From an uncultured Rhodospirillales bacterium (GTDB taxonomy: Bacteria > Pseudomonadota > Alphaproteobacteria > Acetobacterales > Acetobacteraceae), in NCBI GenBank assembly GCA_903844785.1, contig CAIMVB010000217.1, positions 1 through 22,701 on the forward strand: a DNA stretch of 22,701 nucleotides, in the 5' to 3' direction. The notes beneath the pieces were generated by a model that had not been told where the DNA came from, made no database searches, and saw only the letters and a program-made list of their open reading frames with translations. Positions 573-22,701 of this stretch are shown in pieces; position 1 is the stretch's first letter, and each line of letters opens with the position of its first letter. Both the position numbers and the translations under genes were made by a program.

Positions 573-644
573 GGAAAGCTCCTCCCTCCCTGGTGTTCTT
601 ACCCGCACTCTGGAACCTCTGGCGGCAATGCGCCAGCCCAGCGT

Positions 645-673: not shown

Positions 674-681
674 GCCCCGCG

Positions 682-6140: not shown

Positions 6141-6466
6141 GCGCAGGCTTCAAGAATTTTGCTGAATTCTGGCCTTACTATCTTGGTGAACACGCCAAGC
6201 CCACCACGCGTGCCCTACATTTTGCGGGCACAGGCGCTGGGCTTTTGCTGACCGCGACTGCGCTGATCTCGGGCCAATATTGGTTGCTGCTGGTGGCGCT
6301 GGTCTGCGGCTATGGCCCGGCCTGGGTCGGGCATTTCTTTGTAGAAAAGAATCGCCCTGCCACTTTCCGCCACCCGCTTTGGTCGCTGGCGGCGGATTTT
6401 CGCATGTTCTTTTTCTTCATCACCGGGCGGCTCAGCGCAGAGCTTGCCCGCCACGGTATTCGATAA
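6137..6466 (+). CDS. DUF962 / Mpo1-like membrane protein
   Basis: This 109-aa small membrane protein starts with an ATG overlapping the glnD stop (ATGA). The opening FAEFWPYYLGEHAKPTTRALHFAGT and the later VGHFFVEKNRPATFRHPLW match the conserved blocks of the DUF962 family. Two or three hydrophobic segments lie at about 30-60 and 85-102. The best known relative, yeast Mpo1, is an iron-dependent dioxygenase acting on 2-hydroxy fatty acids. The conserved histidines (in EH, LH, GH and RH) are kept here, so a lipid-oxidising role is possible but inferred. It is the last gene of the mutS operon and ends two bases from the convergent permease gene, with no obvious terminator between them. Confidence 0.85.
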   Translation: MSAGFKNFAEFWPYYLGEHAKPTTRALHFAGTGAGLLLTATALISGQYWLLLVALVCGYGPAWVGHFFVEKNRPATFRHPLWSLAADFRMFFFFITGRLSAELARHGIR

Positions 6467-6468
6467 AA

Positions 6469-7383: not shown

Positions 7384-7387
7384 GGCC

Positions 7388-8341: not shown

Positions 8342-8354
8342 TGTCTCTCCGGCA

Positions 8355-8384
8355 ATCGCCGGGCGGTCATTGCCGCCCGGCGAT
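8355..8384 (-). terminator. intercistronic hairpin between binding-protein and permease genes
   Basis: A perfect 12-bp inverted repeat (ATCGCCGGGCGG, 6-base loop, CCGCCCGGCGAT) fills most of the 49-base gap. No run of T follows on the minus strand. It is therefore more likely an RNA-stabilising or attenuating stem than a full terminator. Such stems after a binding-protein gene commonly let the binding protein be made in excess over the permeases. Confidence 0.6.
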
Positions 8385-8390
8385 CAAGTG

Positions 8391-10007: not shown

Positions 10008-10036
10008 TGCGTCACTCTCCCTTCATCGCGTTCGGA

Positions 10037-10054
10037 CGGTTTCGGGGGAAACCG
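10037..10054 (-). promoter_or_regulatory. hairpin in leader of the binding-protein operon
   Basis: CGGTTTC and GAAACCG form a perfect 7-bp stem with a GGGG (plus-strand) tetraloop, about 30 nt upstream of the binding-protein ATG. It could sit in the 5' leader of the transporter message or be part of an operator. No T-run makes it a terminator. Confidence 0.35.
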
Positions 10055-10253
10055 CCGCCTAAAGGCAATTCATCGCCTTGCTCACCGCCCAGACCCAAGG
10101 TCTCAACAGCGCAACAAGATCTGAAGGCAGCAAAGCCTGTGCCACCCCCCAGCCCTAGGCCGGCGGTCAGAGATGTTCATCCCTGCCTATTTTATTGGCA
10201 GCACTGCCCGACCATGCGGCGGCACGCGCCAAGGTGCAACAGAAAATTGCCTT

Positions 10254-10272
10254 GGGCTTGCCAGGCAAGCCC
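10254..10272. promoter_or_regulatory. 19-bp perfect palindrome, candidate operator
   Basis: GGGCTTGCCAGGCAAGCCC is two 9-base arms around one central base. It lies 20 nt upstream of the racemase ATG and 247 nt upstream of the divergent importer operon. This symmetry and placement suit a dimeric regulator controlling the racemase gene, or an mRNA leader hairpin. No regulator gene is adjacent. No other clear copy was noticed in the window. Confidence 0.4.
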
Positions 10273-10292
10273 GGCCGAGGCCAGAAACACCC

Positions 10293-11036
10293 ATGCGCAT
10301 CCTGCTTCTGAACGGCAATACCGACCCTGCCATCACCGATCTGATCGCCAAACGGGCGCAGGAAGCCCTCCCCCGGCTTGGCCTGCCCGCCTGTGATCTG
10401 GTGCCAGCAACCGCCCCCTTTGGCGCGCGCTATATTGCGACCCGCGCTGCGGTCGCCATCGCCGGCCATGCAGTGCTGACAGGCTTGGCCCAGCATATCG
10501 GCCCCACCAATCCGCAGGGCTTTGATGCCGCCATCATCGCCTGTTTCGGTGAACCTGCCATTGAAGCCGCGCGCGAGCTTCTGCCCATCCCCGTCCATGG
10601 CATGGCGGAAGCTTCCATCACGCTTGCCCTGGAACAGGCGCCACGCATCGCATTGCTGACCGGCGGCACCGCCTGGGTGCCGATGCTGGAAGAATTCGCC
10701 CTGATCCGCGGCCATGGCCGCGATAAAGTGCAGGTCCGCAGCGTGCCCCCCACCGGCGATATGATTGCGCGCGAACCCGAAAAGGCACTGCACCTGATTG
10801 CAGAAGAAGCCCAGCAAGCGGTGGCCGAAGGCGCCGGCGTGGTGGTGCTGGGCGGCGCGGGGCTGGTGGGGCTGGCGCCGAGGCTTGCCGCGCAACTGCC
10901 GGTGCCTGTGCTGGATAGCCTGGATTGCGCGCTGATCATGGCCTGCCGGGGTGGCCCCGCTGCTCGCCGCGTGGCGCAGGCGCCGCAAACCGGGCTTGAA
11001 CCGCAGCTTGCGGCCATGATGGGGTCACCCGCATAA
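10293..11036 (+). CDS. Asp/Glu/hydantoin racemase-superfamily protein with one catalytic cysteine replaced
   Basis: The 247-aa product has the fold-typical start MRILLLNGNTDPAITDLIAKRA and the length of hydantoin racemases. The frame is open to 10173, but the first 40 codons do not resemble the family, so I start at the ATG at 10293. The family normally uses two cysteines. The first is present in IIACFGEP (Cys84). At the second, usually in an LGCAG context, the sequence reads VVVLGGAGLVG, with Gly188 in its place. A nearby Cys212 (LDSLDCALIM) is not at the usual position. The protein may thus be a non-racemising member, such as a decarboxylase- or isomerase-like enzyme. It faces a peptide-type importer operon, suggesting uptake and processing of an amino-acid derivative. 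Confidence 0.8.
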   Translation: MRILLLNGNTDPAITDLIAKRAQEALPRLGLPACDLVPATAPFGARYIATRAAVAIAGHAVLTGLAQHIGPTNPQGFDAAIIACFGEPAIEAARELLPIPVHGMAEASITLALEQAPRIALLTGGTAWVPMLEEFALIRGHGRDKVQVRSVPPTGDMIAREPEKALHLIAEEAQQAVAEGAGVVVLGGAGLVGLAPRLAAQLPVPVLDSLDCALIMACRGGPAARRVAQAPQTGLEPQLAAMMGSPA

Positions 11037-11044
11037 AAAACTAT

Positions 11045-11084
11045 GTAAGGACTACTTACCTTTCACCCCAACCCGCGCTAACCT
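11045..11084 (+). promoter_or_regulatory. candidate ilvE promoter with overlapping inverted repeat
   Basis: TTACCT (11056-11061) and TAACCT (11079-11084) are spaced by 17 bases ahead of ilvE. The inverted repeat GTAAG-GACTA-CTTAC (11045-11059) overlaps the -35 hexamer and could be a repressor site. The hexamers match the consensus only moderately. The element also lies just after the racemase stop. Confidence 0.25.
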
Positions 11085-11120
11085 GATCACGCTTAGAAAA
11101 AACCCCGAGGATACGCAGCA

Positions 11121-12194
11121 ATGGCCTCCTTCCCGATCACCCGCACCACCACCCCCAAGGTGAAGCCCGCCGATGATGAGCTTTCCTTCGGCAAGGTGCT
11201 GACGGACCACATGTTCCTGATGGATTATCAGGAAGGGCTAGGCTGGCATTCCCCGCGGATCGTGCCCTATGGGCCGCTCAGCCTGGATCCAGCGACTTCC
11301 GTGCTGCATTACGGCCAGGCGATTTTCGATGGGCTGAAGGCGTTTCGCGGCGATGATGACCAAATCCGCCTATTCCGCCCAGACCGCCATGCGGAACGCT
11401 TCAATCGCTCCGGCCAGATCATGTGCATGCCGGAATTGCCGGTGGATATCATTCGCCAAAGCTTTGATGCGTTGGTTGGGCTTGAACATGAATGGGTGCC
11501 ACGCAAGCCCGGCACCGCGCTTTACCTGCGCCCCACCATCATCGCGACCGATGTGATGCTGGGCGTGCATCCGGCGCATAATTACATCTACTTCCTGATC
11601 CTTTCACCCGTTGGCACCTATTACAAGGAAGGCGTGAAGCCGGTGAAAATCCTGGCGTCAGACACGCATGTGCGCGCCGTGAAGGGCGGCACCGGCGAAG
11701 CCAAGACCGCCGGGAATTACGCCGCGAGCCTGGCTGGCCAGCGTGACGCCGCCAAGGCTGGCTATTCACAAGTGCTCTATCTGGATGGCGTCAACCGCAA
11801 ATACCTCGATGAAGTCGGCACGATGAATATCATGCTGAGGATCGGTGATGAGGTGATCACGCCGCCGCTGACCGGCACCATCCTGGATGGCGTCACGCGC
11901 GCCAGCACCTTGCAATTGATGCGTGATTGGGGGCTCAAGATCTCGGAACGCCCGATTGCCATTGAAGAAGTCATGGCGGCGGGGCGCAACGGCACGCTCA
12001 AGGAAATGTGGGGCACGGGGACGGCGGCGGTTGTCTCGCCGGTCGGGACGCTTGGCTATAAGGGCGAGGATGTGCTGATCAATGGTGGTGAGATCGGCGA
12101 TGTCACGCGCCGGCTTTATGATGCCATCACCGGCCTGCAATATGGCCGCAGCAATGACCCGCATGGCTGGACCAGCATTGTGCGTAAGGGCTGA
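11121..12194 (+). CDS. ilvE: branched-chain amino acid aminotransferase
   Basis: This PLP enzyme catalyses the last step of leucine, isoleucine and valine synthesis, and the first step of their breakdown. The 357-aa length and motifs fit the class II (BCAT type 2) branch. These include LHYGQAIFDGLKAFRGDD (about 62-79), the PLP lysine in GGTGEAKTAGNYAAS (Lys195), YLDEVGTMNIM (about 229-239), and the phosphate-binding TGTILDGVTR near 253-262. MWGTGTAAVVSPVG near the C-terminus is also typical. The ATG at 11121 is preceded by CGAGG about 10 nt upstream. It is a single gene, ending 7 bases from the convergent DUF4169 gene. Confidence 0.95.
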   Translation: MASFPITRTTTPKVKPADDELSFGKVLTDHMFLMDYQEGLGWHSPRIVPYGPLSLDPATSVLHYGQAIFDGLKAFRGDDDQIRLFRPDRHAERFNRSGQIMCMPELPVDIIRQSFDALVGLEHEWVPRKPGTALYLRPTIIATDVMLGVHPAHNYIYFLILSPVGTYYKEGVKPVKILASDTHVRAVKGGTGEAKTAGNYAASLAGQRDAAKAGYSQVLYLDGVNRKYLDEVGTMNIMLRIGDEVITPPLTGTILDGVTRASTLQLMRDWGLKISERPIAIEEVMAAGRNGTLKEMWGTGTAAVVSPVGTLGYKGEDVLINGGEIGDVTRRLYDAITGLQYGRSNDPHGWTSIVRKG

Positions 12195-12201
12195 GTAACG
12201 C

Positions 12202-12378
12202 CTAATCTTCCTTCTTCGCGCCGTCCGTCACGGCGCGAAGCTTGGCTTTCTCCGCCGCCAGCCGCGCGCGTTCTGTCTTGCTCTGCCCGTATCTGGCGCG
12301 GTTTTCCGTGGCTTTCGCTTCGGCGGCGTCGCGTGCCTTGGCCTTTCGGGCGCGATTGAGGTTGACGATTTCAGCCAT
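12202..12378 (-). CDS. DUF4169 family small basic protein
   Basis: This 58-aa protein starts MAEIVNLNRARKAKARDAAE and ends DGAKKED. The EIVNLNRARKAKAR start and the later TENRARYGQSKTER match the DUF4169 family, small highly charged helical proteins of alphaproteobacteria with no known function. Nearly the whole chain is predicted to be helical and rich in Lys, Arg and Ala. It is convergent with ilvE and divergent from the dienelactone hydrolase gene, whose start is 41 nt away. No strong ribosome-binding site is visible. The 3' coding end contains an 11-bp inverted repeat. Confidence 0.82.
   Translation of the reverse strand: MAEIVNLNRARKAKARDAAEAKATENRARYGQSKTERARLAAEKAKLRAVTDGAKKED
12214..12240. 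terminator. hairpin between ilvE and DUF4169, inside the DUF4169 coding end
   Basis: CTTCGCGCCGT and ACGGCGCGAAG form a perfect 11-bp stem with a 5-base loop, 20 bases after the ilvE stop. Its position suits termination of ilvE transcripts. It is entirely inside the last codons of the convergent DUF4169 gene. The T content after it on the plus strand is modest (CTTGGCTTTCT). Confidence 0.5.
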
Positions 12379-12419
12379 GCCCGCAGGATAGCCCCATCTC
12401 TTTTCGAAGGAAAACGCCC

Positions 12420-13085
12420 ATGCCCATGATCTCGCTCACTGCTGCTGATGGTTTCCGCCTGCAAGCCTATCGCACCGGCCCGCAGGATGCCGCGCGCGCC
12501 CTGGTGGTGACGCAGGAAATCTTTGGCGTGAACCACCATATCCGCAAGCTATGCGATAATTTCGCCGCGGCTGGTTACGCAGTAATCGCGCCGCAGCTTT
12601 TTGATCGCGCTGAGCGTAATGTGGAACTGGGCTATGATGCCGCCGATCTGGCGCGCGGGCGCGAATTGCGCGGCAAGATTGATGCAGGCAAAACGGTGCT
12701 GGATATTCTGGCCGCCGCCGCTGCCCTGCCGCGCCAGGCGAAGCGTGGCATTGTTGGCTATTGCTGGGGCGGCACCGTCGCCTGGCATGGCGCAACCCGT
12801 ACCAGCGCCTTTTCCGCTTCCGTCGGCTGGTATGGCGGTGGCATTGCGGCGGCGAAGGATGAAGTGCCGAATTGCCCGACGCAGCTGCATTTCGGTGAAA
12901 CCGATGCTTCAATCCCCATGAGCGATGTGGAAGCCATCCGCGCCGCGCGCAAGGAAGTGGAAATCTTCGTCTATATGGGCGCGGGCCATGGTTTCGGCTG
13001 TGATGAACGCGGGTCCTACGTGGCGAAGGATGCTGCGCTGGCGCAGGAACGCACGCTTGGCTTCTTCGCCAAGCATCTTGGCTGA
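12420..13085 (+). CDS. dienelactone hydrolase family protein
   Basis: This 221-aa alpha/beta hydrolase belongs to the carboxymethylenebutenolidase group, which opens lactone rings such as dienelactone in chlorocatechol breakdown. The nucleophile elbow is GYCWGG with Cys115 in place of serine, as in true dienelactone hydrolases. Asp162 (GETDASIP) and His190 (GAGHGF) complete the triad. The opening QEIFGVNHHIRKLCDNFAAAGY is also diagnostic. GAAGGA lies about 9 nt before the ATG. No other aromatic degradation gene is nearby, so the true substrate is unknown; many members act on other esters. Confidence 0.9.
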   Translation: MPMISLTAADGFRLQAYRTGPQDAARALVVTQEIFGVNHHIRKLCDNFAAAGYAVIAPQLFDRAERNVELGYDAADLARGRELRGKIDAGKTVLDILAAAAALPRQAKRGIVGYCWGGTVAWHGATRTSAFSASVGWYGGGIAAAKDEVPNCPTQLHFGETDASIPMSDVEAIRAARKEVEIFVYMGAGHGFGCDERGSYVAKDAALAQERTLGFFAKHLG

Positions 13086-13094
13086 AAAGACAAA

Positions 13095-13118
13095 CCGCGC
13101 AGGCCCAAGCCTGCGCGG
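13095..13118. terminator. intrinsic terminator between dienelactone hydrolase and phasin genes
   Basis: CCGCGCAGGC-CCAA-GCCTGCGCGG is a perfect 10-bp stem with a tetraloop between two convergent genes. On the minus strand it is followed by TTTGTCTTTT, so it best terminates the phasin transcript. On the plus strand it lacks a T-run and may work less well for the hydrolase gene. Confidence 0.75.
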
Positions 13119-13124
13119 CTCACA

Positions 13125-13562
13125 TCAGGCCTTCGTGTCGGTGGAGAGGTTCTTCACCTCCTCCATCGCCTCGGCAAAGCGCGTATGCAGCACGGATAGC
13201 GCTTCGCCGCTTGATTTCTGGATCAGATCAGCCAATTCCTGCATTTGCCCGACCGCGCGTTCATAGGCAGCCTTGGCCATTTCCGCCTGCTTGGCGGCCT
13301 GTTGCTGGGCATCGCCAGGGCTTGCCATGGACCGCATGGCATCCTGCATTTCGGCCACTGATTGCTGCACAATTTCCATATGGCGTTCAGCAACCGCACG
13401 GGCACCTTCCAGCGCCACCTTATTGGCCGCCGTAATGGCTTCCAGATTTTTCTGCTGGGCCTTTGCCAGCGCGGTCATATCCGGCATGGCGGGCAGACGG
13501 AAATCCGCCAGGATTTTAGAGATATCCATATTGGGCTTGAAGCTGAAGGGATCAGTCATCAT
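13125..13562 (-). CDS. phasin family protein
   Basis: Phasins coat polyhydroxyalkanoate granules and control their number and size. The 145-aa product has the typical layout: a short N-terminal part (FSFKPNMDISKILADFRLP), then a long helical, Ala/Gln/Glu-rich stretch including AQQKNLEAITAANKVALEGARAV and the C-terminal EEVKNL. Length and composition match the alphaproteobacterial phasin family. The frame is open to a GTG at 13568, but GGAG at the right spacing favours the ATG at 13562 or the one at 13559. A TetR regulator gene ends 47 bases upstream in the same direction, so the two may be co-transcribed. No PHA synthase gene is in the window. Confidence 0.85.
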   Translation of the reverse strand: MMTDPFSFKPNMDISKILADFRLPAMPDMTALAKAQQKNLEAITAANKVALEGARAVAERHMEIVQQSVAEMQDAMRSMASPGDAQQQAAKQAEMAKAAYERAVGQMQELADLIQKSSGEALSVLHTRFAEAMEEVKNLSTDTKA

Positions 13563-13609
13563 TGGCACTCCGGTTGAGGGAAATGACTATAGACTGCTCC
13601 CCGGTCAGG

Positions 13610-14233
13610 TCACGAAGTTTCCGCAGCAGGCCCCACCGGCGCCGCTTCAACATCTCCGCGCAGCAGGCCAAGCGGTCGGGCGATACGTTCCGCCCGATCA
13701 AGCGCGTTATCCAAAGCCGCCATGGTGGTGCCCATATCGGGGCTTTCATCCTTGGCCCAGGCGCGGATCGTCGCCAGCCAAACGCCGGCAAGGCCCAAGG
13801 CCAGCAACCGCGCTTCGCAGCTTTTCGCCTCAACCTCGGCAGCTTCCAGCATCCAGCGCATGGCAACGCCGATATGCGGCGCCAGCGCCAGCGCAATGGC
13901 AGGATCGCGGCGCATATCCTCAAACAGGCGCAGAATGCCGTCACGATGCGGTTGCATCGCGTCCAGCCGGCGCATCAGCACATCAAAAATCCGGTCCCGC
14001 GCGGAACCACCCTGGCCCGGAATGGTGCCGGCCAGCACGGCCTGATCCATCACCCGGCCATGCAACAACAAAAGATCCAGCCGCGTGGGAAAGCGTTCCC
14101 GCAAGGTAGCGGTATCGGTGCCCGCTTCGGCGGCCAGGCGGCGCATTGTCAGCCCCGGCCAGCCATGCGCGGCAATCACGCGCCATAGCGCGGCAATCAG
14201 GGTTTCGTCATTGGCAAGGGTCATAATGACCAT
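13610..14233 (-). CDS. TetR family transcriptional regulator
   Basis: This is a one-domain-plus-ligand-domain repressor of 207 aa. Residues 10-55 contain the helix-turn-helix: WRVIAAHGWPGLTMRRLAAEAGTDTATLRERFPTRLDLL. The C-terminal domain, with MRRDPAIALALAPHIG and a helical ARLLALGLAGVWLATIRAW segment, resembles the COQ9-like TetR proteins of alphaproteobacteria; this second comparison is from memory. The start is uncertain: the ATG at 14233 or the one at 14224 (MTLANDE), neither with a clear ribosome-binding site. Two inverted repeats lie on the start, suggesting autoregulation. The downstream phasin gene is the likely target or partner. Confidence 0.85.
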   Translation of the reverse strand: MVIMTLANDETLIAALWRVIAAHGWPGLTMRRLAAEAGTDTATLRERFPTRLDLLLLHGRVMDQAVLAGTIPGQGGSARDRIFDVLMRRLDAMQPHRDGILRLFEDMRRDPAIALALAPHIGVAMRWMLEAAEVEAKSCEARLLALGLAGVWLATIRAWAKDESPDMGTTMAALDNALDRAERIARPLGLLRGDVEAAPVGPAAETS

Positions 14234-14243
14234 TCTTTAGAAT
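14219..14243. promoter_or_regulatory. two abutting inverted repeats over the TetR gene start
   Basis: GGTCAT-A-ATGACC (14219-14231) is directly followed by ATTCT-TT-AGAAT (14232-14243). Together they cover the two possible TetR start codons and the sequence just upstream. TetR proteins usually bind such palindromes at their own promoters, so this is a candidate self-operator. Confidence 0.4.
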
Positions 14244-14359
14244 ACTTCACCCTTGGGGCGCCAGCAGTAAGCTGAGCCATGGCCTGTGGCAGGCGGGGTT
14301 TTGATAAAACGGCTTTGCGGTGCCGAAGCCACCAAGCCAGATGAAAATCCGCCAGCCGG

Positions 14360-15013
14360 TTACTTGCTTGGCTGCAGGGCAGGCTGCGCTTCTTTCACGC
14401 TTCTGACCAGCGCCGGGAAAAGCGGTTTGCGGGCTAAGTAGAGCTTTGTGTCATCAGGGTTGATCGGGCGCTGCAAGCGGAAATCAACCTCCATCAACAA
14501 GGCCTCCGGCGCATAGCAATATTGGCCCGCAAGATGCGCCAGCCAGGTCAGTTCCTCATCAGCGCGGTGGGTGCGATAGGCTTCATGGAAAATGCGCCCC
14601 TGGCCGTAGAAAGCCTCGGCAAAGCTGCAGCGCACCAGGCCGAAAGTGGCAAGCTTGCCGGCAAATTTCCCGTCATTGAAGCCACATAGCCCAGCTTGGG
14701 CAGAAGTGATGCGTTCATGGGCAAGCCTGAGCCAATCTTTTCCCGCCAATGCATCCTGCGCGACATAAGCCACGAACTCCGCCTCCAAGGCAGCGGCCAT
14801 CATATTCGCGGTTTTGATGAAGCCTTGCCGAATGGCATCATGGGCAATGATGATCCGACAGGCCATGCCAGCGAAATCCATCATGCGCCGGGCAGTTTGC
14901 AGCGCCATGGCAAGATCCGTCGCGGGCATCAGCACTGCCACACCACGCCCCCGCATGGGCAGCGGCTTTTCCTTCAACCCGTCATGATAAATTTCGAAGA
15001 TTTCGATATTCAT
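14360..15013 (-). CDS. hypothetical protein, possibly glycosyltransferase-like (GT-A fold)
   Basis: I do not recognise this 217-aa protein with certainty. The stretch AAALEAEFVAYVAQDALAGKDWL resembles the part of family 2 glycosyltransferases where a nucleotide-sugar-binding Asp sits, here QDALAG. GLCGFNDGKFAGKLATFGLV, then FHEAYRTHRADEELTWLA, resemble acceptor-side regions. A strict DxD motif is absent. There is no signal peptide or membrane segment, so it is likely cytosolic. The start is uncertain: the ATG at 15013 lacks a ribosome-binding site, and Met20 (MRGRGVAVLMP) is an alternative. The gene stands alone, between the TetR gene and proC, all on the minus strand. Confidence 0.5.
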   Translation of the reverse strand: MNIEIFEIYHDGLKEKPLPMRGRGVAVLMPATDLAMALQTARRMMDFAGMACRIIIAHDAIRQGFIKTANMMAAALEAEFVAYVAQDALAGKDWLRLAHERITSAQAGLCGFNDGKFAGKLATFGLVRCSFAEAFYGQGRIFHEAYRTHRADEELTWLAHLAGQYCYAPEALLMEVDFRLQRPINPDDTKLYLARKPLFPALVRSVKEAQPALQPSK

Positions 15014-15261
15014 GCACCGGCGCGCCGCCCAAAGGGCATCTTTACTTCACGGCCATTAGTTACGGTAATTGATAAATTTTTTCAATGATTAATTCGAAAA
15101 TACAAAGGCCGTGGCTCCATGATCAGCGGCGCCGCGCCAATGGCGCGCAAGCGATCAAAGGACTTAACCTTCGCCACAACTACGCAGCACACGCATCTGG
15201 GGAATATAGCCCAAACGCAATGGGTTCAGGCGGAAGCCATCCACCCGTTAATCTCATGCGG
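15014..15261. other. intergenic region with an AT-rich core
   Basis: No gene is supported in these 248 bases between proC and the glycosyltransferase-like gene. Bases 15055-15105 are strikingly AT-rich for this backbone and probably hold the promoter of the minus-strand gene at 14360. A weak TTGAAA lies there, but no good -10 at the right spacing. GCGCCA-A-TGGCGC (15134-15146) is a short palindrome without a T-run, downstream of proC. Confidence 0.4.
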
Positions 15262-16074
15262 CTAGCCCGCCAATTCCCGCGCCCGATCGGTCGCGGCCTG
15301 AATGGCGCGCGACATCGCCTTCGGCCATGCATCGGCTTCCATCAACACCGCCAAAGCGCGTTCCGTGGTGCCTTTCGGGCTGGTTACCGCGCGGCGGAGG
15401 TCAGCGGCATCCTGTTCACTTGCCCCAAGCAGCGCGCCGGAACCGGCCACGGTGGCGCGCGCCATGCGCCGGGCCAAGTCACGCGGTAGGCCCTGTTCCA
15501 CAGCGGCGGCTTCCAGAACCTCCGCCAATAGAAACACATAGGCCGGGCCGCCGCCCGATACCGCCGTCACGGGATTGATCTGATCTTCCTGATCCACCCA
15601 GGCCACTTCGCCAATCGCGGCGAGCAGCGCATCAGCCAGCGCCTTTTGCGCCGCGCTCACCCCCGGCCCGGCGAAAGCGGCGGTGAAACCCTGGCGGATG
15701 GCGGCCGGCGTATTCGGCATGGCGCGCACCACTGCCGTACCCGCGCCAAGTGCCGCCTGCATGGACGCAATGGAACGCCCCGCCATGATGGTAAGAAACA
15801 GCGCCCCTTGCGCCGAAAAACGCGCATAGGCCGGAAGGCTGGCTGGTGCTTCCTGCGGTTTGATGGCCGTCACCACGGCGGCGGGGCGGAAATCAGCCGG
15901 GATGGCAGCGGCATCTGCCACTACCCGCACGCGCCCGGTAAAGGCCGCCACCGCAGCCGCATGGGGTTCCACCACCACGGCATCAGACAAGCCCTGTTCC
16001 AGCCAGCCGGACAGCATCGCGCCGCCCATCTTGCCACAGCCAATGAGAAGGATCGGGGGGAGTTTTTCGCTCAT
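15262..16074 (-). CDS. proC: pyrroline-5-carboxylate reductase
   Basis: ProC catalyses the last step of proline synthesis, reducing pyrroline-5-carboxylate with NAD(P)H. The 270-aa length is typical. The N-terminal Rossmann motif is LLIGCGKMGGAMLSGWL (about 9-25). VVRAMPNTPAAIRQG and the family signature AVSGGGPAYVFLLAEVLEAA follow. The C-terminus has TSPKGTTERAL, also conserved. It follows the YbjN gene by 55 bases on the same strand, with a short hairpin between them. Confidence 0.95.
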   Translation of the reverse strand: MSEKLPPILLIGCGKMGGAMLSGWLEQGLSDAVVVEPHAAAVAAFTGRVRVVADAAAIPADFRPAAVVTAIKPQEAPASLPAYARFSAQGALFLTIMAGRSIASMQAALGAGTAVVRAMPNTPAAIRQGFTAAFAGPGVSAAQKALADALLAAIGEVAWVDQEDQINPVTAVSGGGPAYVFLLAEVLEAAAVEQGLPRDLARRMARATVAGSGALLGASEQDAADLRRAVTSPKGTTERALAVLMEADAWPKAMSRAIQAATDRARELAG

Positions 16075-16098
16075 GCCCCCAGAGTGCCGCCGAAATCA

Positions 16099-16122
16099 GG
16101 CGCGGGCAATCACCCCCGCGCC
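16099..16122 (-). promoter_or_regulatory. short hairpin between YbjN and proC genes
   Basis: GGCGCGGG and CCCGCGCC form an 8-bp stem with an 8-base loop, between the end of the YbjN gene and the proC start. There is no T-run after it on the minus strand, so it may attenuate or process the message rather than end it. Confidence 0.35.
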
Positions 16123-16129
16123 GGAAAGC

Positions 16130-16633
16130 TTATGCTTCGCCCACACAATCCAGCATGGCGGCGGCCAGCGCGTCATTCGGGCTTTTCCCGCCCCAAAGCA
16201 CGAATTGGAAGGCTGGGAAGAAGCGCTCACATTCCGTCAGCGCGATATCCACCATATCCTCCAGGCTTTCGGCGGAGGCACCAGGCGCGCCGCGCAACAG
16301 CACGGAATGGCGGAAAACCGGCACGCCTTCTTCGGATTCGATACCAAAATGCCCAATCCAAAGCCGGTCATTCGCCAAGGCCAGCAATTCATAAAGCTTG
16401 TCACGCCGCGCCGCCGGCACCTTCAAGTCAAAGGCGCAGGTGAAGGCCATGGCGCTCATTTCGGAAGACCAAGAAAAATGCAGCCCGTAATCGCACCATT
16501 TCCCCGGCGCCTCAGCCGCCATTTCATGGTCTGAACGGCGTTCGAACACCCATTCATTGCCGGCAATAATCTGTTCCAGCACATCCAAAGGATTGATGGT
16601 GTGTTCAGATTCAATACGCAGAGAGGCGGACAT
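16130..16633 (-). CDS. YbjN domain-containing protein
   Basis: This 167-aa soluble protein resembles the YbjN family (a type III secretion chaperone-like fold). The features are a start such as NPLDVLEQIIAGNEWVFER, then LHFSWSSEMSAMAFTCAFDLKVP, a helical LYELLALANDRLWIGHFGI, and a C-terminal MVDIALTECERFFPAFQFVL. In E. coli the family affects motility and stress, but no biochemical role is settled. The frame is open to 16675. GGGGGAG, 6 nt before the ATG at 16633, fixes the start there. It leads the two-gene unit with proC. Confidence 0.85.
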   Translation of the reverse strand: MSASLRIESEHTINPLDVLEQIIAGNEWVFERRSDHEMAAEAPGKWCDYGLHFSWSSEMSAMAFTCAFDLKVPAARRDKLYELLALANDRLWIGHFGIESEEGVPVFRHSVLLRGAPGASAESLEDMVDIALTECERFFPAFQFVLWGGKSPNDALAAAMLDCVGEA

Positions 16634-16710
16634 TGAAACTCCCCCTTTCCGGTCACCCAGCCTGCACCCCCACATATGGTGTGCGAATCGGGCCGGCGAC
16701 CACTAGCGGG

Positions 16711-16740
16711 AGATTACGCAGGTGCGGAATCCCGCCGCAA
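16711..16740 (-). promoter_or_regulatory. candidate promoter for YbjN-proC unit
   Basis: On the minus strand TTGCGG (16735-16740) and TAATCT (16711-16716) are 18 bases apart, upstream of the YbjN gene. This would give a leader of roughly 70 nt. It is a motif match only, in the 132 bases before the gene. Confidence 0.3.
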
Positions 16741-16765
16741 GGGCGAATAGGTTACAATCCTGTCT

Positions 16766-17116
16766 TCACGCGCCGGATGAGGATTTGCCGCCTGATTTTG
16801 GGACCGGCTTCGATTGTTTTGTCGCATTTTCCGAGTCGCCAAGTGTTTCCACTTGGCTTGAAAATGCTTTGGCCTCCAGCGCCGCTACCCGCGCCGCTAG
16901 GTCTTCCGCCTGTTCCCGGGCGCGGCGCGCCACATCCATGGCGGCGTCCAATTCTTCCCGCCGGACCAGGTCCAGGCGGCGGATAATGGCCTCCGCCTGC
17001 GCTTTGGCGATGGCCTCAATCTCCGCACGAATGCCTGTCAGCACGGAAAAGGCGCCGCCGGCTACCCCCGCCAGATCGTCCATGAGGCGCGCACGCCCGC
17101 CGCCCTGATCCTTCAT
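16766..17116 (-). CDS. UbiK-like accessory factor (BMFP domain protein)
   Basis: The 116-aa product has MDDLAGVAGGAFSVLTGIRAEIEA, then RLDLVRREELDAAMDVARRA and a C-terminal coiled coil AREQAEDLAARVAALEA. That is the BMFP/UbiK arrangement: an amphipathic helix followed by a trimeric coiled coil. In Enterobacteria UbiK helps the ubiquinone synthesis complex UbiJ-UbiK and binds lipid. The tail (SGGKSSSGA) is low complexity. The frame is open to 17422, but those codons lie opposite hldD. The ATG at 17116, with GAGG nearby, matches the family start. It is divergent from hldD. Confidence 0.85.
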   Translation of the reverse strand: MKDQGGGRARLMDDLAGVAGGAFSVLTGIRAEIEAIAKAQAEAIIRRLDLVRREELDAAMDVARRAREQAEDLAARVAALEAKAFSSQVETLGDSENATKQSKPVPKSGGKSSSGA

Positions 17117-17139
17117 CGCCTCACCCTTTCGGCACTTGC

Positions 17140-17169
17140 TTGCCGGTCTATCCCACCAAGGCCTATACC
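17140..17169 (+). promoter_or_regulatory. candidate promoter for hldD-lgt
   Basis: TTGCCG (17140-17145) and TATACC (17164-17169) are 18 bases apart in the 96-base divergent region between the UbiK-like gene and hldD. Confidence 0.35.
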
Positions 17170-17173
17170 CTAG

Positions 17174-17198
17174 AGCCTCGTCGCTCAAGATCGAGGCT
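17174..17198 (+). promoter_or_regulatory. stem-loop in hldD leader
   Basis: AGCCTCG and CGAGGCT form a 7-bp stem with an 11-base loop, ending 14 bases before the hldD ATG. It would be in the 5' leader of the transcript and could affect ribosome access, since no clear ribosome-binding site is seen. Confidence 0.35.
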
Positions 17199-17212
17199 GC
17201 AGAAATCCGCCC

Positions 17213-18196
17213 ATGCATATTGTCACTGGCGGGGCCGGTTTCATCGGCTCCAATCTGGTTGCCGCACTTTGCGCCCGCGGGGCGGAGGTGATGGTGGTGG
17301 ACCGCCTGCGCCAAGGGGTGAAATGGCGCAATCTGGCCAAGCACCTGATTGCCGGCGTGATCCCGCCTGAAGCGCTGTGGGATTTCCTGCATGCCGGCGC
17401 GCCGGTGGAAGCGGTTTTCCATATGGGCGCCATTAGCGCCACCACGGAAACCGATGGCGATCTAGTGGCGGCGACGAATATCGCCCTGCCGCAGCGCCTG
17501 TGGGATTGGTGTGCGAAGCGCGGCGTGCCTTTCATCTACGCTTCCTCCGCCGCCACTTACGGCGATGGTGCGCTTGGCTTTGATGATGATGCTTCCGCTG
17601 CGGCTTTGGCAAAGCTGCGCCCGCTTAATCTTTATGGCTGGTCCAAGCTCGCTTTCGATCGGCGCGTGACGCAAATGCTGGCGCTGGGCGAAGCGCGGCC
17701 ACCACAATGGGCGGGGTTGCGCTTCTTCAATGTCTATGGCCCGAATGAACACCATAAGGGCCGCATGGCGAGTGTGGTGCTGCATAAATTTCAGCAAATC
17801 ATGCGCGGTGAGGCCGCGACACTTTTCGCTTCAGACCGCGAAGGTGTTGCGGATGGCCAGCAGATGCGCGATTTCGTGCATGTGGATGATTGCGTTGCCG
17901 CGATGCTGTGGCTGCATGACAATCCCGGCACTTCAGGCTTGTTCAATATCGGCAGTGGTGCGGCGCGGAGCTTTCTTGACCTGACCCACGCCATTTACGC
18001 GGCCTTGGACCGCGCGCCCGATATTCGCTTCATCCCCATGCCGGATGATCTGAAGGGCAAATACCAATATTTCACCGAAGCGCGCATGGAACGCCTGCGC
18101 GCGGCTGGCTTTCGCAAAAACCCAATCACGCTGGAAGCGGGTGTGGCTTCCTATGTGCGTGATGTGCTGCTGAATGCCGAGGATCCCTTCGCCTGA
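17213..18196 (+). CDS. hldD: ADP-L-glycero-D-manno-heptose-6-epimerase
   Basis: HldD inverts carbon 6 of ADP-heptose, giving the sugar used in the LPS inner core. The 327-aa protein is an extended short-chain dehydrogenase. The NADP-binding motif VTGGAGFIGSN lies at the N-terminus. The catalytic region has ASSAATYGDG and YGWSK (Tyr141, Lys145). FFNVYGPNEHHKGRMASVV and MPDDLKGKYQYFTEA are specific to HldD rather than to other sugar epimerases. The ATG at 17213 begins directly with the Rossmann strand. The stop overlaps the lgt start by one base (TGATG). Confidence 0.93.
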   Translation: MHIVTGGAGFIGSNLVAALCARGAEVMVVDRLRQGVKWRNLAKHLIAGVIPPEALWDFLHAGAPVEAVFHMGAISATTETDGDLVAATNIALPQRLWDWCAKRGVPFIYASSAATYGDGALGFDDDASAAALAKLRPLNLYGWSKLAFDRRVTQMLALGEARPPQWAGLRFFNVYGPNEHHKGRMASVVLHKFQQIMRGEAATLFASDREGVADGQQMRDFVHVDDCVAAMLWLHDNPGTSGLFNIGSGAARSFLDLTHAIYAALDRAPDIRFIPMPDDLKGKYQYFTEARMERLRAAGFRKNPITLEAGVASYVRDVLLNAEDPFA

Positions 18197-18990
18197 TGTT
18201 CTTCGCCATCCCCTTCCCGATGATTGATCCGGTGCTTGTCCAGATTGGGCCATTCGCCATTCGTTGGTATGCGCTGGCCTATATTGGCGGCATTGTGCTG
18301 GGCTGGTGGCTGGCGCGGCGGCTTGTTGCGCTTGCCCCCAAGGTGGCCACACGCGAACAGGTGGATGATTTCGTCACCTGGGTGACGCTTGGCATTATTC
18401 TGGGCGGGCGGTTTGGCTATGTGCTGTTCTATCGCCCCGGCCATTACCTGACCGCCCCGTGGGAGGCTTTGTATCTATGGCAGGGCGGCATGTCCTTCCA
18501 TGGCGGGGCTTTGGGTGTGATCCTGGCGCTGTTTTTATTCGCGCGCCGCTATGGCTTGGATTGGGTGGCCTTTGCTGACCGCGTGGTGTGCGTGGTGCCG
18601 ATTGGTATTTTCCTTGGCCGCTTGGCGAATTTCATCAATGGCGAGTTGTGGGGCCGCGTGGCTGATGTGCCCTGGGCCATGGTGTTTCCGGGCGCCGGCC
18701 CTGATCCACGCCACCCATCACAGCTTTACCAGGCGGGGCTTGAGGGGTTGTGCCTTTTCATCCTGCTGATGCTTTTGGTCTATCGCCCCACGATCCGCGC
18801 CCGCGCGGGCGTGCTTTCTGGCGTTTTCCTGGCAGGCTATGGCGTGGCGCGCTTCATTGGCGAATTCTTCCGCCAGCCCGATGCGCATCTTGGGTTTTTA
18901 TTCGCGGGTGCGACCATGGGGCAATTGCTGTCACTGCCGATGATGGCGGTGGGCGCTTGGTTGGTGCTGCGGGGGATGCGCAGGGCTTGA
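18196..18990 (+). CDS. lgt: phosphatidylglycerol-prolipoprotein diacylglyceryl transferase
   Basis: Lgt adds diacylglycerol to the lipobox cysteine of prolipoproteins in the inner membrane, the first step of lipoprotein maturation. The 264-aa protein has about seven hydrophobic segments. The catalytic-region GGMSFHGG (97-104) and the family signature GRLANFINGELWG (141-153), with Arg142 and Glu150, are intact. RHPSQLYQ (172-179) is also conserved. It is translationally coupled to hldD. Its stop at 18988-18990 is two bases before the tRNA-Thr fragment, so it is the last backbone gene before the inserted element. Confidence 0.95.
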   Translation: MFFAIPFPMIDPVLVQIGPFAIRWYALAYIGGIVLGWWLARRLVALAPKVATREQVDDFVTWVTLGIILGGRFGYVLFYRPGHYLTAPWEALYLWQGGMSFHGGALGVILALFLFARRYGLDWVAFADRVVCVVPIGIFLGRLANFINGELWGRVADVPWAMVFPGAGPDPRHPSQLYQAGLEGLCLFILLMLLVYRPTIRARAGVLSGVFLAGYGVARFIGEFFRQPDAHLGFLFAGATMGQLLSLPMMAVGAWLVLRGMRRA

Positions 18991-18992
18991 GA

Positions 18993-19037
18993 TGGTGCTG
19001 TTGGAGAGGATTGAACTCTCGACCTCTCCCTTACCAA
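18993..19037 (-). tRNA. tRNA-Thr(GGU) 3' fragment, attachment-site remnant
   Basis: Read on the minus strand this is the 3' 45 nt of a tRNA. It comprises the full 7-base anticodon loop TTGGTAA (anticodon GGU, threonine), 3' anticodon stem GGGAG, variable loop AGGTC, T-stem GAGAG/CTCTC around loop TTCAATC, 3' acceptor strand CAACAGC, discriminator A and encoded CCA. The expected 5' anticodon stem CTCCC (plus-strand GGGAG after 19037) is missing; AT-rich unrelated DNA begins at once. The D-arm and 5' acceptor are absent from the window. It cannot be a functional tRNA. The break at the anticodon loop is where integrases of tRNA-targeting elements commonly cross over. Confidence 0.9.
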
Positions 19038-19204
19038 TAAAAGGTGCCCGTTTCATTCATTGATTTTACTAGGGTTTTTTATCATAAAGGCGCCTGTAAT
19101 AGTCTTTCGCCTATTTGTAATACGATTTGCTTTCCATATTTCATCTGTTATTTCCACTTTCATCCCTATAACTGAATACGCGGCTTCAACCAAGGAGACG
19201 CACA

Positions 19205-19618
19205 ATGACCTTCATCAAAAACCTCAAACTCGTAGCAATCACCACACCCAAAAGCGATCCGATCATTCGGAGACGCGAAGCACTTGTAAGCCGTCTACGC
19301 GATCAGATTGAACGCATCTCTAACCCCCACCACGCGCGATTGAGGCACAGCTGGATCAAGATCAACGGCGAGCGCAAATCCCGCGACCGTCATATTCCCG
19401 TTCGCCCATGGTGGCGGCAGCAGCGCGACGGCAGCGTGGTCTTTACCCTGACGGTCGGCATGAAGCGGATCGAGCTGGAAACGGGCAAGGCAGGGATTGT
19501 GATCCCTAATGCCAATGAGCTGCCGAAGCTGATCGAGGGGTTGATCGCAGCGGTGGGTCGCGGAGAGCTTGATTCGCAGCTCCAGGCGGTTTCGATGGGC
19601 AGGCTAGGTAAAGGGTAG
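19205..19618 (+). CDS. DUF6641-like hypothetical protein
   Basis: This 137-aa soluble protein is the first gene inside the element. Its pattern is an N-terminal LKLVAITTPKSDPIIRRREAL, a basic middle, VRPWWRQQRDGSVVFTLTVG, KRIELETGKAGIVI and a C-terminal LIAAVGRGELDSQLQA. This fits my memory of the DUF6641 family, found in mobile regions of proteobacteria, with no known function. AAGGAG lies about 8 nt before the ATG, so the start is firm. There is no signal peptide or membrane segment. A weak hairpin follows the gene. The family call is from pattern only. Confidence 0.6.
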   Translation: MTFIKNLKLVAITTPKSDPIIRRREALVSRLRDQIERISNPHHARLRHSWIKINGERKSRDRHIPVRPWWRQQRDGSVVFTLTVGMKRIELETGKAGIVIPNANELPKLIEGLIAAVGRGELDSQLQAVSMGRLGKG

Positions 19619-19659
19619 GGGAGAAAGCGGCGGCAGATTCTGCGGCGCTCAGAACCCAC

Positions 19660-19679
19660 ACAAAATAACCCTATTTTGT
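19660..19679 (+). terminator. weak hairpin terminator after the DUF6641-like gene
   Basis: ACAAAATA-ACCC-TATTTTGT is a perfect 8-bp stem with a 4-base loop, ending in a T-rich arm followed by TCGTTTATT. It is AT-rich and so weak, but its place 41 bases after the stop suits a terminator. Confidence 0.4.
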
Positions 19680-19822
19680 TCGTTTATTATTTAATAATTT
19701 CCGTTATCGAAATGACATACTAGCCATATTTGTCCATGATTTCAGCTACTTATGGCCCACAATATTACTGTAAAATCCAGCAGAATAAGGGATGCCGCCC
19801 GCCCAAAATTACATCGACAGAC

Positions 19823-19879
19823 GCGTAGTAATCAGTTGCCCAACGCTCATGCCGCACGAAAGCGTAGTAATCAGTTGCC
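19823..19879. repeat. 18-nt direct repeat, two copies 39 nt apart
   Basis: GCGTAGTAATCAGTTGCC occurs at 19823-19840 and again, exactly, at 19862-19879. TCATGCCG (19847-19854) and CGGCATGA (19886-19893) are inverted relative to each other. TCATG-ACGG-CATGA (19880-19893) is a small palindrome. With only two copies it is not a CRISPR. Iterons, a recombinase subsite pair or a regulator site are the likely readings. Confidence 0.75.
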
Positions 19880-19955
19880 TCATGACGGCATGACCTTATC
19901 CAGATCATTTAACTGTATTGAATCAAGCAGAACGCATCTAGTTAAGAAGACAATA

Positions 19956-20876
19956 TCAGCGTCTTATACTGCTTATAATGTATCCGCGCTTATCCCGACG
20001 TCTGCGCATGAGCCATACATAGAGCTCATCAAGCTGCTTGACCTCGTGGATTGTGAGACCGCGCTCATCCTCAGTAGTCTCACCACCACGTGCTGCGCGT
20101 CCAGAACCACCTCCACGCCAGATCTTTGCGTCTAAATCTTCATCAAGGTCGCGACCGAAGCCAGCAGTATAACGAAGTTTCTCGTTGCCGCCTTTCGTCA
20201 CATAATCTGCTATTTTATTGAGGTTCTTTGCTGTGCTCTTATCGCGAAAGAGCTTCTTCAGCTCGACCTGATAGCTGCTCCTGCTCCAGCGCCTCACCTG
20301 CTTCATGCGCTTTCGGATGTCTGCCTCGTTCGAATCCGTGTCTGCGCCGAGGTCTATGACCACATGAGCATGGACGAGTATCTGCGCAGCGTTCTCTTGT
20401 GAGATGCGCTTGCTGCTCAGCCTCTCCAGCACATCCAGCTTTCGAACTTCATCCTCCTTTGTGCCTTTGATCCGACGCAGGAGGTCGACGTTCACCATCT
20501 CAAGCTCGATGGCGCCGCGCGACCATAGCCGCATGCCACCTACGACATCTTCAAAAGCTGCCTCGAGCTTCGTGACAGCGGCTTCCACTGCCTTGATGTT
20601 CGGATCTACGAGAGCGTCGAGCACGGTCATGAAGCGTAGCCGATCTTCTGCTGCGCGACCTATCGTCTTCGCATGACGCTTTAGCTCACCACTGAGCTTC
20701 TTCGCGTGCGCTTCTGCTACCGCTCTGTGTAGCAAGGAGCCGCTGCCTGCTGCGCCTGCTCTGGCTAGGCGCGTGCGCTTATGCATGCCGAGGTTAAATC
20801 GCAGCAGCTCCCCAAGCTGCTCAAGCGTCTCACCGCTTTTTGATTTTCTCTTCAGCTCACTGAATGTCTGCGCCAT
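19956..20876 (-). CDS. putative HUH-type replication initiator (Rep-like)
   Basis: This 306-aa protein is not a confident family match, but it shows the motif order of rolling-circle Rep endonucleases. RLRFMTVLD (80-87) matches the first strand, usually FLTLT. RGAIELEMVN (120-129) matches the strand before the metal site. VHAHVVIDL (168-176) has the His-x-His pair (His169, His171). ADYVTKGG (223-230) supplies a Tyr225-x-x-Lys228 motif at the normal distance after it. The N-terminal 75 residues are helical and basic; the C-terminus has a glycine/arginine-rich linker (254-265) and a basic tail. Such enzymes nick a double-strand origin and covalently hold the 5' end. AAGG lies 8 nt before the ATG. 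It is divergent from the RHH cassette. Confidence 0.6.
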   Translation of the reverse strand: MAQTFSELKRKSKSGETLEQLGELLRFNLGMHKRTRLARAGAAGSGSLLHRAVAEAHAKKLSGELKRHAKTIGRAAEDRLRFMTVLDALVDPNIKAVEAAVTKLEAAFEDVVGGMRLWSRGAIELEMVNVDLLRRIKGTKEDEVRKLDVLERLSSKRISQENAAQILVHAHVVIDLGADTDSNEADIRKRMKQVRRWSRSSYQVELKKLFRDKSTAKNLNKIADYVTKGGNEKLRYTAGFGRDLDEDLDAKIWRGGGSGRAARGGETTEDERGLTIHEVKQLDELYVWLMRRRRDKRGYIISSIRR

Positions 20877-21076
20877 AGATTTACCTTTTGTATACTATTT
20901 AAACCCACAAGGCGGGCAGAAAATTATTTTCTCTCTATTTTTACTATCATTTTTACCGATTATCCATAACCATTTCTAATCGGACGGATCCCCATCCTCC
21001 CGAGCCCCCCGATTTTCCTAAATACACGCAGCACACACGGCACATCGCCGGTGAAGCGGAAAGAAATGGGGGTATC
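20877..21076. promoter_or_regulatory. divergent control region between HUH-like gene and small-ORF cassette
   Basis: This is a 200-base gene-free region that must hold promoters for both directions. AGAAAAT-T-ATTTTCT (20918-20932) is a perfect 15-base palindrome followed by T-rich DNA. GTATAC (20890-20895) is another symmetric site. The half near the HUH gene is very AT-rich, and a GC-richer stretch at 20986-21060 precedes the cassette. The RHH protein encoded next door is the obvious candidate to bind here. No single promoter could be fixed. Confidence 0.45.
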
Positions 21077-21292
21077 ATGTCAGGAAGATTGAGCGCAGCA
21101 GAAGAGAAAGAAGTTCTTATTAATCTCCTCTGCAACCCAGATGACGCGGTGTCACTCCGCCTCCTTCAGCTTCACCACGATGAGCTAATCAAAGGAGAAA
21201 GTCAGATTGTCGACACACAGCTCACAGAACACCATCATCAATATTCGAATGCCAATCGATCTAGCTATACGCGCACGCGAAGCGGCGAATGA
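21077..21292 (+). CDS. small hypothetical protein, first ORF of island cassette
   Basis: I do not recognise this 71-aa ORF. It is acidic and helical at the start (LSAAEEKEVLINLLCNPDDA), then LRLLQLHHDELIKGE. Its last 29 codons overlap the RHH gene in another frame and read as unstructured, Ser/Thr/His-rich sequence, so the true product may be shorter or the region may hold a frameshift. A GGGGG lies just upstream of the ATG. It is the first of four overlapping frames that look co-translated. Confidence 0.45.
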   Translation: MSGRLSAAEEKEVLINLLCNPDDAVSLRLLQLHHDELIKGESQIVDTQLTEHHHQYSNANRSSYTRTRSGE

Positions 21293-21419
21293 CCAAGGCA
21301 TGACCCGAGCATCCTTCATCCGCCAAGCAATGAGACGTAACCTTGAGACCTACACGCTACATGAGCGCGACCTGCTCTCACATGCACACGCATTCCGCAC
21401 AGCAGGAGTTCCAAAGTGA
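21207..21419 (+). CDS. ribbon-helix-helix (CopG/Arc-like) DNA-binding protein
   Basis: This 70-aa protein carries the RHH fold at residues 9-46: strand TIINIRMPIDLAIRA, helix REAANDQGM, then TRASFIRQAMRRNLE. The T/S-x-A-S-F-I-R pattern is the usual RHH second helix. RHH proteins bind DNA as dimers and often repress plasmid copy control, toxin-antitoxin or conjugation operons. The start is a TTG, supported by AAAGGAG about 9 nt upstream; Met15 would cut into the strand. The stop overlaps the next start as GTGA. It is a good candidate to control the divergent HUH-like gene. Confidence 0.65.
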   Translation: MSTHSSQNTIINIRMPIDLAIRAREAANDQGMTRASFIRQAMRRNLETYTLHERDLLSHAHAFRTAGVPK

Positions 21420-21703
21420 TAGGCTTCGCACAAAACCACCGAAATCGCAGTGATGCACTAGAAGCGCAGGATCAAATCCTGCTCGACGAACAGTCTGCTA
21501 CTGTCACCTCACTCGCATACGAAATTGCTTCCCAAATCAGACATGCGCGCTCACAGCTACTGTCCGCGCGTGATACAAAGCAGATGAATGATCGCTTGGC
21601 GACGGTCTTGCTTGGCAGCAGTGCTGCCTCGTTCCTTGCTATTGCCGTAGCAACAGGTGATCAGCAATTCATTAACCTCTGCCGACTACTGGTGCACTCA
21701 TGA
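21416..21703 (+). CDS. small hypothetical protein, third ORF of island cassette
   Basis: This 95-aa ORF starts with a GTG overlapping the RHH stop (GTGA) and ends overlapping the next start (ATGA). That arrangement implies translational coupling and supports it as real. The centre is helical and polar (LAYEIASQIRHARSQLLSARD); the C-terminal third has a mildly hydrophobic patch SSAASFLAIAVATG that is short for a membrane helix. I recognise no family. Confidence 0.5.
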   Translation: MIGFAQNHRNRSDALEAQDQILLDEQSATVTSLAYEIASQIRHARSQLLSARDTKQMNDRLATVLLGSSAASFLAIAVATGDQQFINLCRLLVHS

Positions 21704-21888
21704 CGCTAACATCGACAGAGCGACGAGAGCTGGCATCACAGATGGAGAAAGCGCGTGAGCTTCGCGTCGTGCAATTGAACCCTACAATGGGAACCGAAGC
21801 AGCAGGGCGCATAGCTCGCAGCTTTGTGGAGGACGCGAGAACTGCCGCGCGCAGTAGAATCATCACGATATTAATGATTATAAAATAG
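21700..21888 (+). CDS. small hypothetical protein, fourth ORF of island cassette
   Basis: This 62-aa ORF begins with an ATG coupled to the preceding stop (ATGA). It is helical and charged (STERRELASQMEKARELRVV), followed by GRIARSFVEDARTAARSR, and ends with the short hydrophobic tail IITILMIIK. No family is recognised. Together with its partner it could be a small two-protein module under the RHH regulator, but nothing shows a toxin or antitoxin directly. Confidence 0.45.
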   Translation: MTLTSTERRELASQMEKARELRVVQLNPTMGTEAAGRIARSFVEDARTAARSRIITILMIIK

Positions 21889-22023
21889 CCAATTGTAGTA
21901 TTAATGTGAAACGAAACGATATCACAGTTATTTGTATAACGATCCAACACAATTTCTGCCAAATAGCTTCTTAGGACAAATATTACCATAGTGTTTTAAT
22001 CTCAGGGAAGGAGCTGTTTTATT

Positions 22024-22146
22024 GTGGACTCTCACGATGAGCTTCGCCGTAAACTTGACATACATAACAAACGCCTTGGTGCGTTTCTCTGCGCAATATT
22101 TCTGCCTGCGATCCTTGCGATGATAGCTTTAATTATTATGGATTAA
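22024..22146 (+). CDS. 40-aa single-pass membrane miniprotein
   Basis: This short frame starts at a GTG preceded by AAGGAG about 10 nt upstream, one of the best ribosome-binding sites in the island. The product begins with a charged segment (MDSHDELRRKLDIHNKR) and continues with a 20-residue hydrophobic stretch, LGAFLCAIFLPAILAMIALI, ending IMD. The charge pattern predicts a single inner-membrane helix with the basic N-terminus in the cytoplasm. Its stop overlaps the convergent recombinase stop by four bases. It is too short for most gene finders. The function is unknown; small phage or element membrane proteins are possible relatives. Confidence 0.5.
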   Translation: MDSHDELRRKLDIHNKRLGAFLCAIFLPAILAMIALIIMD

Positions 22147-22701
22147 GCAATACGCTTTTCTTGTTGCCGACACACCCTCCAGACAGTCCCGAAACCTACT
22201 CCCAGCTCCCGCGCCACCTCCACCAGCGTCTTGCCTTGCCTCCGAAGCTCCAAGATCCGCACCCTGACAGCATCATCATGGATTCGCGGGCGTCCAAATC
22301 GAACCCCCGCCGCCTTCGCCCGCGCGATGCCCGAAAGGATTCGTTCAATAATTAGCGATCTTTCATATTCCCCAAGTGCGCCGAAGATGCTGAATGTCAT
22401 CCGCCCTGCCGGCGTTGCCGTGTTAATGTTTTGCTGATGGCAATAAAGCTCCACCGAATTGCGCTGAAGCTCCTTCATGAGCGCGACCAAATCCTGCAGT
22501 GAGCGTCCAATTCTATCGACACTCCATGCCATCACTGCACCCACCGCTTTCTGCTCGACCAGCTCAAAGATCCGGTCAAACCCAGGACGATCTGATCTGC
22601 CTTTGCTGCCAGAGATGCCTTCGTCGACGATCTCATGGGAAACCGTCCAACCCAAACGCTTCGCGGCGTCGCGTAGCTCGATGAGTTGGTTTTCTACCGT
22701 C
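22143..22701 (-). CDS. serine recombinase (resolvase/invertase family), N-terminus cut by window edge
   Basis: This site-specific recombinase is read without a stop to the right edge of the window. The first residues visible are TVENQLIELRDAAKRLGWTV, so only the extreme N-terminus with the catalytic serine is missing. Family marks follow: EGISGSKGRSDRPGFDRI, AWSVDRIGRSLQDL with its catalytic arginines, the long E-helix GALGEYERSLIIERILSGIARAKAAG, RFGRPR, and a C-terminal helix-turn-helix TLVEVARELGVGFGTVWRV. The internal TTG at 22655 is not the start. It is of the short resolvase/invertase type, suiting dimer resolution or inversion rather than large serine integrase action. It runs convergent with the 40-aa gene. 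Confidence 0.9.
   Translation of the reverse strand, partial: TVENQLIELRDAAKRLGWTVSHEIVDEGISGSKGRSDRPGFDRIFELVEQKAVGAVMAWSVDRIGRSLQDLVALMKELQRNSVELYCHQQNINTATPAGRMTFSIFGALGEYERSLIIERILSGIARAKAAGVRFGRPRIHDDAVRVRILELRRQGKTLVEVARELGVGFGTVWRVCRQQEKRIA

Follow-up and report, generated by a model that had tools for sequence, protein, structure and literature searches.

We have identified the displaced 3' half of a tRNA-Thr(GGU) gene directly after lgt in the draft genome of an uncultured Rhodospirillales bacterium (G000; 3.39 Mb, 517 contigs, 91.7% complete). We consider it very probable that an integrative element, estimated at about 5.3 kb, was inserted by its own tyrosine integrase into the tRNA-Thr(GGU) gene between lgt and accD, and that this half gene marks one of its ends. 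The window, by which we mean the whole 22,701-nucleotide stretch that was analysed, is the complete contig C217 of this genome, and its border region contains the following features.

18196..18990, plus strand: lgt (prolipoprotein diacylglyceryl transferase, a name taken from the sequence-only reading), the chromosomal flank
18993..19037, minus strand: displaced 3' part of tRNA-Thr(GGU), positions 31-75, identical at 45/45 positions to the full gene at G000:C124:1903-1977; the attachment-site copy at the lgt-side element end
19038..22701, no strand: the window's share of the inserted element (3664 bp; 50.9% GC), marked by a GC shift and absent at the corresponding junctions of the relatives G006 and G026

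The half tRNA lies 2 bp from the stop codon of lgt and comprises everything from the first anticodon-loop base through the encoded CCA. Since tRNA position 31 is the first of the seven loop bases, the cut is located where the sequence-only reading had placed it, at the 5' end of the anticodon loop. That reading had also described foreign AT-rich DNA in place of the 5' half, and this was borne out. The G+C content is 62.0% in positions 1-18992 and 50.9% in positions 19038-22701, and a comparison with the uninterrupted site of G006 shows 80% identity for the 200 bases to the left of the 45-nt core and 44% for the 200 bases to its right. Considering that 50 random pairs of 200-mers showed a mean identity of 48% and a maximum of 54%, the G+C drop and the fall in identity indicate that the border is real and not due to chance. 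As expected for a half gene, ARAGORN called no complete tRNA in the window, and Rfam gave no match there at the gathering threshold. A 5' half close by had been named as a sign against an insertion; the missing 30-nt half is not in the window, where its best match anywhere is 17/30.

A genome search with the 45-nt core gave two matches in G000. The other match, C124:1933-1978, is on a contig of 3532 bp that carries accD on the minus strand, a complete tRNA-Thr, and a tyrosine integrase.

C124:1903-1977: complete tRNA-Thr, 75 nt, anticodon ggt at position 33, between accD and the tyrosine integrase gene
C124, starting 119 bp downstream of tRNA-Thr: tyrosine recombinase, 406 aa, Pfam Phage_integrase PF00589, E 5.4e-12

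This tRNA-Thr(GGU) is the only such gene detected in the draft, and the direct repeat between C217 and C124 is 45 bp, plus one further common T. The sequence-only reading had predicted a restored tRNA-Thr(GGU) sharing this 45-nt 3' half, together with a matching direct repeat at the far end; both were recovered on C124, the tRNA beside the integrase gene. In comparison with G006, C124 showed the reverse of the pattern of the window, the 400 bases towards accD being 71% identical and the 200 bases in the opposite direction 46%, and the G+C content of its element part is 48.4%. Because the far end lies on another contig, we infer the pairing, in which C124 and C217 would be the two ends of one element.

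In the proposed mechanism, the element would arrive with the 3' 45 nt of tRNA-Thr as part of its own sequence and would recombine with the chromosomal gene, the crossover presumably falling inside the common 45-nt core. On the accD side, a full working tRNA would be rebuilt from the chromosomal 5' part and the 3' part of the element. On the lgt side, the original 3' part would be displaced, and this would be the half tRNA in the window. The element may still be able to excise and to replicate as a circle by means of an HUH-like Rep protein.

The lgt protein is 77-92% identical in 32 of the 34 other genomes of the genus (89-92% in the nearest), and the epimerase-lgt order is conserved in relatives. 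In G006, the lgt stop is followed by 4 bp, the complete tRNA-Thr, and then accD, which represents a clean uninterrupted site. In G026, the junction has the same layout (4 bp, complete tRNA-Thr, accD), but the contig includes only the last ~92 bases of lgt; accordingly, we consider it a supporting junction and not a clean empty site. A comparison with relatives lacking the insert had been proposed in the sequence-only reading, and 19038..22701 is indeed absent at both junctions. Within about 1.5 kb of lgt, ARAGORN detected a complete tRNA in one of 29 relatives' loci (G006). When the 3' flank of lgt was compared in 16 relatives, two showed the junction (G006 and G026), 13 had other DNA, and one, G031, had the tRNA 3' end in the expected place after lgt, where the contig ends. 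In four of the 13 (G007, G014, G019, and G033), the tRNA lies 1.5-4.8 kb further on the same contig. Since most relatives have other DNA after lgt, the locus appears generally unstable and much rearranged, and other histories, with several insertions or rearrangements, are possible for it. In G026 itself, the 3' end of lgt stands at the tRNA-Thr with other DNA before it (L077, 1773-1871), and the rest of lgt ends another contig (the end of L020) with a 53-bp overlap. This lgt is either broken or partly duplicated, or it reflects an assembly fault.

Identical flanks in all relatives had been the other sign named against an insertion, and the flanks were found to differ among relatives, the flank downstream of tRNA-Thr in L085 (G025) and L093 (G024) being different from lgt. 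In these two loci, a tRNA-Thr 3' piece stands beside genes that resemble, by eye, those of a TctC-type binding protein and an M3-type peptidase.

The element would carry an integrase, a serine resolvase, a DUF6641 protein, a probable HUH rolling-circle Rep, and small ORFs. Its features in the window are as follows.

19038..19204, no strand: AT-rich element end beside the core; the same end in G025, 71% identity over 200 bp
19205..19618, plus strand: DUF6641 protein, 137 aa, matching Pfam PF20346 at 32.9 bits (cut-off 27)
19956..20876, minus strand: Rep-like protein, 306 aa, uncharacterised, HxH and YxxK motifs, 86 homologues
21207..21419, plus strand: 70-aa ORF, weakly CopG/Arc-like (ribbon-helix-helix), a possible regulator, best PHROGs E-values 0.006-0.03, without a Pfam match
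21416..21703, plus strand: 95-aa ORF, conserved in the G025 element (68%)
22143..22700, minus strand: serine resolvase, truncated by the contig end and lacking its first 14 codons, Pfam Resolvase E 1.3e-30

In G025, the core (44/45) is followed by the same element end and then by a DUF6641 gene, whose product is 80% identical over residues 16-104 and is encoded in the same place. The chromosomal flank there is another one (52%, near background); it is common to G024 (82% over 200 bases), in which the 80 bases after the core differ (43%). The same element end beside another flank indicates that the border is reproducible and independent of lgt.

The tRNA-Thr gene is targeted repeatedly in the genus. 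Of 35 genomes searched, 34 gave an uninterrupted 75-nt tRNA-Thr match, and 11, including G000, contain 3'-only pieces. Six of these pieces begin at position 26-34, in the anticodon region (G000, G024, G025, G028, G032, and G034), and five at position 49-53, in the T arm (G001, G005, G013, G020, and G031). Among 30 complete tRNA-Thr loci examined, ten have an integrase-type ORF 45-120 bp downstream. Four of the ten belong to the family of the C124 integrase (G000, G027, G029, and G025). The three relatives are 86-91% identical to it and two of them are incomplete, the G029 integrase being cut by a contig end and the G025 frame being open for only 142 aa. This 142-aa frame (L083, 5451-5870) is followed by a TPR-repeat-like gene, the start of which also occurs in L085. 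The other six ORFs (G001, G005, G013, G020, G022, and G031) have a DUF6538 N-terminus. Because integrase domains gave weak scores or none in the 473-485 aa scanned, these six are putative integrases, the assignment depending partly on the occurrence of DUF6538 in integrases. A different integrase of 349 aa lies near tRNA-Thr pieces starting at position 28 in G024 (L092, 2388-3437, with PF00589) and G034 (L095, 4857-5906), and this locus is perhaps a prophage-type element.

The size of the element is estimated from the resolvase. A contig of G027 has the order tRNA-Thr, integrase (91% identical), and serine resolvase directly after it, and the window resolvase is 87% identical to the G027 protein over residues 15-192 of the latter. 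The last bases of C124, ATGGA, fall where the resolvase gene would start, and the minus strand of the window opens at the codon matching residue 15. If the resolvase starts are of equal length, the gap between C217 and C124 would be 36 nt, and the element between the core copies would measure 3664 + 36 + 1555, or about 5255 bp. The orientation of the two contig ends agrees with the gene order of G006. The G027 order and a resolvase split across C124 and the window point to a small element and not to a large island. Accordingly, of the island border that the sequence-only reading had set directly after lgt, the precise border and the insertion stand, and the large island gives way to an element of probably ~5.3 kb. 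C124 and C217 are separate contigs of the draft and their join was deduced, not read, and it would be compatible with this that the two ends come from different elements, or that the element is much larger than 5.3 kb with other contigs in between. Such distances occur in the genus, as a 3' piece lies ~51 kb from the full gene in G032 and ~20 kb in G028, and G024 and G025 each have two extra 3' pieces. We nevertheless regard these arrangements as unlikely, considering that C124 stops at the resolvase start where the window resumes at codon 15, that the resolvase directly follows the integrase in G027, and that only one resolvase of this kind (a single match to residues 15-192 of the G027 protein) was found in G000. 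Beyond the resolvase, some 400 bases of the G027 contig show no similarity to the window, indicating that the rest of the element may vary.

The half tRNA could also be a decayed duplicate or a rearrangement scar with no link to an integrating element, as the gene order around lgt and tRNA-Thr varies among relatives. Decay or rearrangement is hard to reconcile with a half identical at all 45 positions to a full copy that adjoins an integrase, with a cut at a standard integration subsite (PMC4383910), and with the uninterrupted site kept by G006, and we consider it very improbable. A split or permuted tRNA gene, with halves joined after transcription, would likewise leave only a 3' half cut at the anticodon loop in the window, but the full unsplit copy on C124, the lack of a 5' half in the window, and the uninterrupted match in nearly all genomes of the genus (34/35) leave this reading with hardly any probability. 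Integration into tRNA-Thr, in turn, is supported by the presence of the 45-nt sequence twice, by a relative that has the site uninterrupted, and by the integrase beside the full tRNA. It is further supported by the low G+C content of the element on both sides (50.9% and 48.4%), by the recurrence of this element end at the tRNA core of G025, beside a different chromosomal neighbour, and by the related integrases beside tRNA-Thr in G027, G029, and G025.

The 306-aa protein is probably an HUH-type rolling-circle replication initiator, judging from its motifs and a weak fold match. In an alignment of the query with 36 of the 86 homologues, H171 of the HUH motif and K228 of the downstream YxxK motif are invariant, and H169 and Y225 are conserved in at least 90%. 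It resembles HUH Rep proteins (microvirus initiators, AAV Rep, and SIRV1 ORF119) in having HxH and YxxK in the right order, and fold comparisons of its model gave weak matches only; it differs from them in that its sequence gave no significant match in Pfam or PHROGs or among solved chains.

The insertion into tRNA-Thr is in itself ordinary textbook integration at a tRNA site, and what is mildly new is only the occurrence of the uncharacterised Rep-like family in such a small element. The classification of tRNA-gene integration by Williams in 2002, as cited in PMC4383910, reportedly includes an anticodon-loop subsite. The Islander paper describes the tRNA 3'-fragment signature and, among 3919 islands, counts 3760 that have a 3' fragment and 2083 whose site is centred on the anticodon (PMC4383910). 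Partial tRNA genes are described in another source as a pervasive by-product of integration (PMC9897764), and a third reports an island in which the repeat takes in 45 bp from the tRNA-Lys 3' end (PMC2647930). As in Islander-type islands, a tyrosine integrase lies by the restored tRNA, the 3' fragment is displaced to the far end, a direct repeat (45 bp here) starts from the anticodon loop, and a relative has the uninterrupted site. In contrast to those islands, the element is very small (~5.3 kb by our estimate), and no accessory cargo was recognisable among the element ORFs scanned.

A further parallel in gene content may be the pSAM2-like AICEs of actinomycetes, for which one paper describes a tRNA-integrating tyrosine integrase and the HUH rolling-circle initiator RepSA, with one group using tRNA-Thr (PMC3218068). 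The present element likewise has a tyrosine integrase at tRNA-Thr, and its candidate HUH-type Rep may be a counterpart of RepSA, judging from motifs and a weak fold match. On the other hand, its host, probably a member of the Acetobacteraceae, is alphaproteobacterial, a serine resolvase stands beside the tyrosine integrase, and Pfam showed no FtsK/SpoIIIE-like translocase (TraB, an AICE feature) in the five main element ORFs or the 70-aa ORF.

These results map an integrated element to the base and show that at least two types of integrase use tRNA-Thr(GGU) as an insertion site in the genus. They also illustrate how, from a half tRNA at a contig edge, the opposite end of an element can be traced to a different contig. 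The Rep-like family may characterise a group of very small replicons that integrate. With somewhat less than even confidence, we suggest that an undescribed lineage of rolling-circle replicons is represented here by a minimal integrating form, which combines integrase, resolvase, a new HUH Rep family, and DUF6641 in ~5.3 kb and switches between integration at tRNA-Thr and an autonomously replicating circle. In G177, which belongs to a different family, a comparable arrangement with no tRNA nearby hints that such elements recur: on L121, a 401-aa integrase-like ORF (9512-10717) is followed by a remote relative of the Rep-like protein (12652-13581), and a GTATCT repeat array comes right after the latter. 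In the window, an exact 18-bp direct repeat, GCGTAGTAATCAGTTGCC, occurs at 19823-19840 and 19862-19879, 39 bp apart and just downstream of the Rep-like gene, and its copies are possible protein binding sites.
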